Shown here: in pieces, positions 17,628-18,996 of the stretch
How the letters are laid out: each line of letters begins with the position of its first letter
How positions within the stretch are numbered: the stretch's first letter is position 1
Assembly (NCBI RefSeq): GCF_026409565.1
Contig: NZ_CP112881.1
Location: forward strand, 1,225,501-1,289,500
Source of the DNA: Sneathiella aquimaris
GTDB lineage: Bacteria > Pseudomonadota > Alphaproteobacteria > Sneathiellales > Sneathiellaceae
Length of the DNA: 64,000 nucleotides
Direction of reading: 5' to 3'
Program-made: the position numbers and the translations under genes
The notes under the pieces: generated by a model
What the model saw: the letters and a program-made list of their open reading frames with translations, nothing else
Told to the model about the DNA's origin: nothing
Database searches by the model: none

Positions 17628-17644
17628 TAAATTTGGAGGGGTCC

Positions 17645-18304
17645 ATGAAAGTGCTTGCTTTGATTTCAGGGTTGCTGCTGTTCAGCTCGACTGTACAGGC
17701 TGCAGTGCTGGATTTTTCGGGCGTTACCGATATCGGCCCCAGCCACACAAGTTATGTTGAAAAAGGGGTGACGGTACAAAGTATCGGCGGTGATCTTGCG
17801 TATCATGGAACTCCGGGCCGTGTGCATATCACCGACTCGGGAACCTCTTTTGCAACAGGCCTCTCGTTCACTACCGGAGCGAGATTCGACGCCGTTCAGT
17901 TTGATATATTCGGAAGCAGCAATTTTTTCTGCTTGGGTCCGGGTTGTAACTCACCGATCCCCTTTAACAACGTTGTAGTGACAGCTGAACGTTCTGGGGT
18001 TGAGGTCGCGCGCCGGGAATTTTACTCTGGAACAAGTCCGCATACTGAAGTTCTGGATTTTTTCTTTTTGGATATTGATCGTCTTAGCATCAGTATTTTA
18101 TTTCCTGCCGCCGTTGACGATACTGTTTGCGCCTTTGCCGCACCGTGCACTTTCTTTGATGTCGACAATGTTCTCCTGATTCCAAATGGAAACATTTCTT
18201 CTGTTCCTTTACCAGCTGCTTTGCCACTTTATGGGGCAGGTCTTTTAATGGTTGGGTTTCTGGGAAATAGGGCCCGGCGCCGAAATGAAAAATCCATCAA
18301 CTGA
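17645..18304 (+). CDS. VPLPA-CTERM sorting domain-containing exported protein
   Basis: 219 residues from the ATG at 17645, which follows a strong GGAGGGG; an in-frame ATG 24 bases upstream has no ribosome site. A signal peptide (MKVLALISGLLLFSSTVQA) is followed by a beta-rich domain with four cysteines, then VPLPAALPLYGAGLLMVGFL and a basic tail. That is the tripartite VPLPA-CTERM signal recognised by an exosortase-type enzyme for surface sorting. No exosortase is in the window. It probably ends up in the outer membrane or extracellular matrix. Confidence 0.88.
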   Translation: MKVLALISGLLLFSSTVQAAVLDFSGVTDIGPSHTSYVEKGVTVQSIGGDLAYHGTPGRVHITDSGTSFATGLSFTTGARFDAVQFDIFGSSNFFCLGPGCNSPIPFNNVVVTAERSGVEVARREFYSGTSPHTEVLDFFFLDIDRLSISILFPAAVDDTVCAFAAPCTFFDVDNVLLIPNGNISSVPLPAALPLYGAGLLMVGFLGNRARRRNEKSIN

Positions 18305-18315
18305 AATAAAGCCTC

Positions 18316-18344
18316 TTTACATCAAAAAAAATGGACGCTAAGGT
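18316..18344 (+). promoter_or_regulatory. Promoter of the Ile/Val leader transcript
   Basis: TTTACA (18316-18321) and TAAGGT (18339-18344) are spaced by 17 bases. Transcription would start at or next to the leader ATG at 18351, giving a leaderless start like that of the rhizobial trp leader. The -10 is a weak match. Confidence 0.4.
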
Positions 18345-18350
18345 TTTCGC

Positions 18351-18407
18351 ATGAAACAGAATTTTGCCGCCATCATTATTGTGATTGTAAAGGTCATTAC
18401 TCCTTAG
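18351..18407 (+). CDS. Ile/Val-rich leader peptide (ilv-type attenuator leader)
   Basis: The 18-codon frame reads MKQNFAAIIIVIVKVITP. Five Ile and three Val codons are packed into residues 8-16, the mark of a leader peptide that senses charged branched-chain aminoacyl-tRNA. It is followed within 35 bases by a rho-independent terminator with alternative pairings (see the attenuator entry). No ribosome site precedes the ATG, but the likely promoter would place the transcript start at the ATG, and leaderless leader peptides are known in alphaproteobacteria. The next gene encodes a P-loop kinase, not an ilv enzyme. Confidence 0.75.
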   Translation: MKQNFAAIIIVIVKVITP

Positions 18408-18467
18408 AGTCTGGCGGACGCTTCTGTATGAAATCACCATCCGCCCTACGAGGCGGATTTTTTGTTT
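18365..18467 (+). ncRNA. Transcription attenuator (protector/antiterminator/terminator)
   Basis: Three mutually exclusive pairings can be drawn. Segment 1 is CCGCC in the Ala codons just before the Ile/Val run (18367-18371), segment 2 is GGCGGA (18413-18418), segment 3 is ATCCGCC (18439-18445) and segment 4 is GGCGGAT (18452-18458) followed by TTTTT-G-TTT. Pairing 3:4 terminates, 2:3 prevents it, and 1:2 frees segment 3. A ribosome stalled on the Ile/Val codons would cover segment 1 and favour read-through. The released short RNA could also act in trans, as the rhizobial trp leader does; that is speculation here. Confidence 0.7.
18439..18467 (+). terminator. Attenuator terminator
   Basis: The hairpin ATCCGCC-CTACGA-GGCGGAT is followed by a T-rich tract. 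It is the terminator arm of the Ile/Val attenuator and stands 34 bases before the P-loop kinase start. Confidence 0.75.
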
Positions 18468-18501
18468 CTTCCTCGGACGGCACGAATAAATGAGGAAGAC
18501 A

Positions 18502-18996
18502 ATGAGACCGAATGATACGCCCCCTTCATTACATTTTTTCTGTGGAAAAATGGCCGCAGGAAAAACTACTTATGCCCGTGAACTTGCTGAAAAAGAGAAG
18601 GCTGTTCTAATCAGTGAAGATCTTTGGTTGTCCCGCCTCTTCCCGGAAGAAATCAATACCTTTCAGGAATATCTAACGTGTTCTTCAAGGTTGAAACGCG
18701 TTTTGCAAGATCATGTTCAGAGCCTTTTGCGGGATGGGGTCTCCGTTGTTTTGGATTTTCCTGGAAACACAAGAGGGCAGCGGGCCTGGTTCAAGAACGT
18801 TTGCAAGGAAGCCAATGCCGAGCATTGCCTGCATTATCTCGAACGGTCAAATGCAGAATGTCTTGTACAATTGAAAAAAAGAAACCGGGAAAAGCCGGAA
18901 GGGTCGAAAAGAACTTCCCCCGAAGAATTTATGATGGTGACCAGCTATTTCGAAGAACCCAGTGTTGAAGAGGGCTTTAATGTCCATCATGTGTAG
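18502..18996 (+). CDS. P-loop ATPase/kinase (AAA_33, zeta-toxin-like fold)
   Basis: About 164 residues. Walker A is GKMAAGKTTYA near the N-terminus, followed by ISEDLWLSRLF and VVLDFPGNTRGQR, as in small COG4639-type ATP-binding proteins related to nucleoside or zeta-type kinases. I prefer the ATG at 18502 because AGGAAG stands just before it; an ATG at 18490 in frame lacks a good ribosome site. It is the only gene downstream of the Ile/Val attenuator, so its transcription may depend on branched-chain aminoacyl-tRNA supply. The phosphorylated substrate is unknown. No antitoxin-like partner is adjacent. Confidence 0.8.
   Translation: MRPNDTPPSLHFFCGKMAAGKTTYARELAEKEKAVLISEDLWLSRLFPEEINTFQEYLTCSSRLKRVLQDHVQSLLRDGVSVVLDFPGNTRGQRAWFKNVCKEANAEHCLHYLERSNAECLVQLKKRNREKPEGSKRTSPEEFMMVTSYFEEPSVEEGFNVHHV

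Follow-up and report, generated by a model that had tools for sequence, protein, structure and literature searches.

An amino-acid attenuator is usually taken as a sign that the gene behind it makes, charges or transports that amino acid. What, then, does an isoleucine/valine leader control when the gene behind it encodes a small kinase? This question is raised by a locus in the window analysed here, a 64-kb stretch of DNA from the complete, 3.94-Mb genome of a member of the genus Sneathiella, with S. glossodoripedis and S. chinensis as named relatives. The leader is followed by the kinase gene and then by the convergent mscS. As the sequence-only reading had pointed out, there is no ilv gene behind it and, unlike the attenuator of an ilv operon, it does not precede a gene for branched-chain biosynthesis. 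That reading left two options, control of the kinase in cis or an orphan leader acting in trans. From computed sequence features, conservation, association with the kinase, pairing potential and a leader type shared with ileS, we consider it highly probable that the leader is a cis-acting, ribosome-mediated Ile/Val attenuator controlling the AAA_33 kinase.

The leader ORF, MKQNFAAIIIVIVKVITP, extends from the ATG at 18351 to the TAG at 18407 (18 codons, five Ile and three Val; all elements from the promoter to the kinase described here are on the forward strand). I or V occupies 8 of 9 residues of its core. The window has 663 ATG ORFs of 10–30 codons, counting both strands, and in no other ORF among them does any stretch of 9 residues contain more than 5 I/V. 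Six of the 663 are followed by a terminator no more than 90 nt beyond the stop codon, and the leader ORF alone combines both features. The predicted promoter (18316–18344) consists of a −35 element TTTACA (18316–18321), a 17-nt spacer and a −10 element TAAGGT (18339–18344). The end of the latter is 6 nt from the leader ATG, placing the predicted transcription start at or adjoining the start codon. A generic consensus promoter scan did not call this promoter. A similar geometry is present in nearly all of the 22 leaders compared below (spacer 17–18, −10 to ATG 5–7 nt; weakest in L045 and L117), in keeping with a leader mRNA that is probably leaderless. Rfam gave no family match for the leader at the gathering score and, at relaxed thresholds, only one sub-threshold chance sRNA. 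The gene upstream of the leader (17642–18304) encodes a secreted-looking product with a C-terminal VPLPAALPLYGAG...RARRR sorting-type tail and no Pfam match.

The protector, antiterminator and terminator described in the sequence-only reading are all present, at the pairings given there. Segment 1, GCCGCCA (18366–18372), lies within leader codons 6–8 and constitutes the 5′ arm of the protector, pairing with TGGCGG (18412–18417) in the minimum free energy structure. Segment 2, TGGCGGA (18412–18418), serves both as the 3′ arm of the protector and as the 5′ arm of the antiterminator, in which GGCGGA (18413–18418) pairs with TCCGCC (18440–18445; −8.2 kcal/mol); this helix is short, with 6 bp and a z-score of −1.6. 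Segments 3 and 4 form the intrinsic terminator, ATCCGCC-CTACGA-GGCGGAT with a U-tract (18439–18463). Its stem pairs 18439–18445 with 18452–18458 and is followed by T6 (−11.1 kcal/mol, z −2.8), segment 3 (18440–18445) being the same stretch that can pair with segment 2. Downstream, a further predicted hairpin hides the Shine-Dalgarno (SD) sequence of the kinase, GAGGAAG in segment 6 (18491–18499), by pairing it with an anti-SD arm, segment 5 (18467–18475). The hairpin has a predicted energy of −11.3 kcal/mol and a z-score of −3.6, and none of 200 shuffles was as good. Segment 4 (18449–18458, beginning CGAGG) can in turn pair with CCTCG of the anti-SD arm (18471–18475), freeing the SD, as suggested by the partner-permutation test described below. 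Neither the SD-hiding helix nor the link to ileS leaders was part of the sequence-only reading.

These elements suggest a relay of pairings, 1:2, 2:3, 3:4, 4:5 and 5:6. RNA polymerase would begin transcription at the leader AUG or close to it, and the leader would be translated. With Ile-tRNA and Val-tRNA charged, the translating ribosome would reach the stop codon and cover GGCGGA, allowing the terminator to form, and the SD hairpin would keep the kinase untranslated on any read-through RNA. During a shortage of charged Ile-tRNA or Val-tRNA, it would stall on the I/V codons and mask the protector arm, GGCGGA would capture UCCGCC, and no terminator would form. The freed 3′ side of the terminator would then be available to the anti-SD arm, and pairing between them could expose the ribosome-binding site of the kinase, so that the stalled state would both block termination and open this site. 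The reasoning on the ribosome footprint draws on established knowledge of ribosome-mediated attenuation; stalling, termination and induction at this locus, as well as the physiological role of the kinase, are what we infer. The best reading of the sequence is that uncharged tRNA-Ile (and tRNA-Val) would turn the kinase on in cis.

Pairing was compared in 22 leaders, 19 from Sneathiella and three from other families. In a MAFFT alignment of all leaders the terminator was out of register, and pairing was therefore also examined on segments picked per sequence. The antiterminator (GGYGG with CCGCC), the 3:4 hairpin and the SD-hiding hairpin are predicted throughout the set. The mutually exclusive protector, antiterminator and terminator helices are correctly placed relative to the leader codons and the stop. 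The codon position of the protector in the window differs from that in most relatives, where it is predicted on other leader codons. Compensatory changes in the helices are present across species, with a modest number of independent changes. The SD hairpin differs in sequence by group (CTTCCTC/GAGGAAG, CTACCTC/GAGGTAG and CGTCTCC/GGAGACG), and one position of the terminator stem has A-U, U-A and C-G alternatives (14 leaders). The sixth antiterminator pair is A-U or G-C depending on the leader and changes together with the terminator arm; it is mismatched in the divergent Sneathiella set. For the 4:5 duplex, in which the anti-SD arm can pair with the loop and 3′ side of the 3:4 hairpin, real partners have a mean energy of −13.2 kcal/mol versus −11.1 for permuted partners (sd 0.5), with none of 1000 permutations as low, in a test of 16 representatives that leaves relatedness in and uses segments selected in the light of the structure.

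Six Sneathiella species (G019, G010, G008, G024, G015 and G006; leaders L035–L040) have no U-tract after the 3:4 hairpin and still keep the leader, the antiterminator and the SD hairpin. Due to the missing U-tract, termination is unlikely as the output in these species, and the relay seems to act mainly on translation. This suggests that one leader has shifted from transcriptional to translational control within a genus.

The association between leader and kinase is constant within the genus. Of 25 Sneathiella genomes, 21 gave a single copy of the AAA_33 kinase in a protein search, and an Ile-type leader lies directly upstream in all 21. Ten of these kinases are of the window type, nine are 39–47% identical to the window kinase, and the remaining two (G011 and G021) have a leader of a second type, R-I-[ITS]-x-P-A, described below. 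The leader peptides of relatives drift in sequence and keep their Ile/Val runs (MENNFVHNAIVAVIILKNMAEVS, MMNTFALKPVTIVVAIIKKIMAGF, MAYNMNIIVVKILSIPRMAEVCMP and MNYEFSNMQIVVVIST). Conservation of the Ile/Val run and of the paired segments in relatives had been set beforehand as the test of the attenuator, and both are kept. As the unit is also found in some other families and its pairing is kept despite sequence change, the proposal that the kinase is under branched-chain aminoacyl-tRNA control gains strong support from the comparison.

The kinases preceded by four-segment leaders fall into two lineages, which the deepest supported split of the kinase tree separates, the only split used here since many inner forks are weak. 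The window lineage groups with cyanobacterial and gammaproteobacterial kinases. In the four genomes of the divergent set that were inspected, the kinase is located between suf genes and an ABC-F ATPase. A covariance model built solely from the divergent set detects the leader of the window (E = 1.3e-4) as well as relatives of it (2e-5 to 2e-3), which argues that the two groups of leaders are related to each other. That distant kinase lineages at different loci both carry the leader points to a leader that goes with the function of the kinase and not with a single inherited gene; one kinase may have taken the place of another behind the same leader, or the leader may have been captured. The two lineages occupy different loci in different Sneathiella species and never occur together in one genome (loci L204–L209), an exclusivity that suggests functional replacement.

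The same comparison bears on the second option of the sequence-only reading, an orphan leader acting in trans. Here either a terminated transcript (about 113 nt) or the peptide would do so, as rnTrpL/peTrpL do in Sinorhizobium, with the kinase a mere neighbour. Sinorhizobium trpL is a leaderless attenuator mRNA (PMC7298713), the window leader is predicted to be leaderless as well, and an ample supply of Ile and Val would lead to release of the terminated RNA. However, leader and kinase stay together in every kinase-bearing Sneathiella genome despite differing kinase lineage and locus, the RNA structure runs into the ribosome-binding site of the kinase, and the peptide drifts freely save for its Ile/Val content. 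We found no positive evidence for an action in trans, which is not needed to account for this cis-adjacent leader and which we regard as improbable.

A very improbable alternative is that the leader formerly belonged to ilvIH and now lies passively before the kinase, without selected regulation. In its favour, ilvBN of Caulobacter is known to have an Ile/Val attenuator (PMC4117421, citing Tarleton 1994). However, the leader shows no decay, its Ile/Val codons, helices and promoter being kept across diverged species. The region upstream of Sneathiella ilvI, behind miaA, is different: in the window's own genome and its relatives (L092–L098) no Ile/Val leader ORF is visible and no Rfam match was obtained, and ilvI was rejected as a former owner of the leader. 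This region does contain a promoter-like stretch and a terminator-like hairpin. A search of 61 genomes for further copies of the leader, with the weaker matches inspected in part, gave no copy at an ilv gene among the matches examined. The strongest matches of both RNA models are upstream of the kinase, and the weaker ones inspected are ordinary terminators with one true exception in G008. There, a second, unlinked four-segment leader (L157; G008:C55:15603-15760, minus strand) with the peptide MSIYLTQQMIRIIIIIP precedes a different small P-loop kinase, with weak AAA_18/AAA_33 similarity, that is absent from the 40 other genomes searched. The last alternative, that the short hydrophobic ORF in its small transcription unit encodes a membrane toxin of a type I toxin-antitoxin kind with incidental hairpins, was rejected as extremely unlikely, as the hydrophobic run of 5–9 residues (only IVVVI in S. 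chinensis) is too short to span a membrane, the relation among stop position, GGCGGA and terminator is kept, and the promoter scan called none in antisense orientation across the leader.

Attenuation in cis stays our preferred reading, and in other alphaproteobacterial families the kinase is often preceded by the second leader type. With 385 genomes sampled, the kinase is present in 23 alphaproteobacterial genomes outside Sneathiella, ten of them with an Ile-type leader in front of it. As read by eye, three of these are Ile/Val leaders (L114, L115 and L117) and seven are of the second type, which ends in R-[IV] followed a few codons later by P-A or P-V, near or inside the terminator. The other 13 of the 23 kinases have no leader, which indicates that leader control is not obligatory. 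Among 30 homologues from outside the alphaproteobacteria, no Ile/Val ORF with a terminator was found.

The second type has a DNA signature, CGAATTA with a CCCGGC hairpin, of which the 385 genomes contain 42 occurrences, spread over 37 of them, and the reversed control none. Of 30 occurrences fetched, 14 are in front of ileS; the remainder include copies that precede a small ACT-domain-like protein, an NTF2-like protein (both labels by reading the sequence), a DUF4743 protein (from Pfam) or the AAA_33 kinase. An R-I-[ITS]-x-P-A leader was present at all 11 ileS genes inspected, nine from Sneathiella, including the window's genome, and two from another family. The copy in the window's own genome, L194, lies upstream of ileS at about 1119500 of G000:C1 (leader sets L163–L192 and L193–L203). 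Some ileS leaders read ...FAAIIIRITTPAL, much like the FAAIIIVIVKVITP of the window, and isoleucine is the codon common to both leader types. The second type apparently relies on a single key Ile codon and lacks an antiterminator; by stalling at this codon, a ribosome would itself cover the 5′ arm of the terminator. The R-I-[ITS]-x-P-A leaders likely represent an alphaproteobacterial isoleucyl-tRNA attenuator regulon.

How do these leaders relate to known systems? In Caulobacter crescentus, an Ile/Val attenuator controls ilvBN (ilvIH; Tarleton, Malakooti and Ely 1994, as cited in PMC4117421). As far as the citing paper describes it, the Caulobacter attenuator resembles the window leader in being alphaproteobacterial, in carrying Ile and Val codons in tandem and in having an intrinsic terminator that gives way when the ribosome pauses, as predicted for the window. 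It differs in its target, acetolactate synthase versus a small kinase, and, set against that description, the window has an SD-hiding helix after the terminator. Gram-negative bacteria commonly have BCAA attenuators ahead of biosynthesis genes (PMC6123439). A Caulobacter 'ileS leader CDS', CCNA_03934, is on record (PMC4117421); we liken it to the R-I-[ITS]-x-P-A leaders as an ileS leader CDS only, not by leader type. The ileS leaders found here have their Ile codon at a fixed place just before the terminator and their last codons in its 5′ arm, with no evident antiterminator, whereas the window leader is of the four-segment type; leaders of the ileS type also precede the kinase family elsewhere in the alphaproteobacteria. 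The rhizobial trpL/rnTrpL (PMC7298713) resembles the window as a ribosome-mediated attenuator of an alphaproteobacterium with a leaderless mRNA (predicted in the window). It differs in its Trp codons, its trpE target and the trans-acting products shown there. The mechanism is textbook. What appears to be new is the target, together with the coupling to a translation step and control of the ileS type. Among open-access papers, we found none linking such a leader to an AAA_33 kinase.

The kinase itself (18502–18996, 164 aa) matches Pfam PF13671 at 3.8e-26. Alignment with relatives places its true start probably at 18502 and not at 18490, where the mechanical ORF begins. Its AlphaFold2 model has a pLDDT of 91.7, and the nearest PDB folds are polynucleotide kinases, with a TM-score of about 0.7 for the model. 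The bacterial Pnkp kinase domain (4gp7, 4jt2) and mammalian PNKP (3zvl) have the P-loop kinase fold in common with it, at 18% identity to the polynucleotide 5′-kinases, and gluconate, APS, 6-phosphofructo-2- and O-phosphoseryl-tRNA kinases rank next, the gluconate, APS and O-phosphoseryl-tRNA kinases scoring nearly equally. The Walker A residues are invariant in 43 homologues, and so is a Glu-Asp pair that follows the second strand; other P-loop kinases have such features as well. A phage polynucleotide-kinase PHROG matches the kinase at 3.4e-8, and phrog_35548, a phage family of unknown function, does so strongly (2e-42). A PDB sequence search with the kinase returned nothing useful, and padloc gave a weak VakA match only. 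The kinase perhaps acts on a nucleic acid.

The alphaproteobacterial kinase appears to belong to an isoleucyl-tRNA-responsive gene set that includes ileS, and the recurrence of the leader-kinase pairing in Sneathiella and other alphaproteobacteria suggests that it is probably part of a response to isoleucine shortage. We put forward as a tentative and rather doubtful extension that uncharged tRNA-Ile, through two RNA switches depending on lineage, induces a polynucleotide-kinase-like enzyme acting on RNA, for example repairing, modifying or protecting tRNA, within an isoleucyl-tRNA stress regulon shared with ileS; the switch of the window would be a six-segment relay coupling antitermination to the opening of the ribosome-binding site. 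For a kinase family so far annotated only as 'AAA domain', an attenuator coupled to it repeatedly, by two leader types, provides a functional lead, a response to isoleucyl-tRNA shortage. The leaders also point to a regulon around ileS in alphaproteobacteria, which can be charted in one genome after another.
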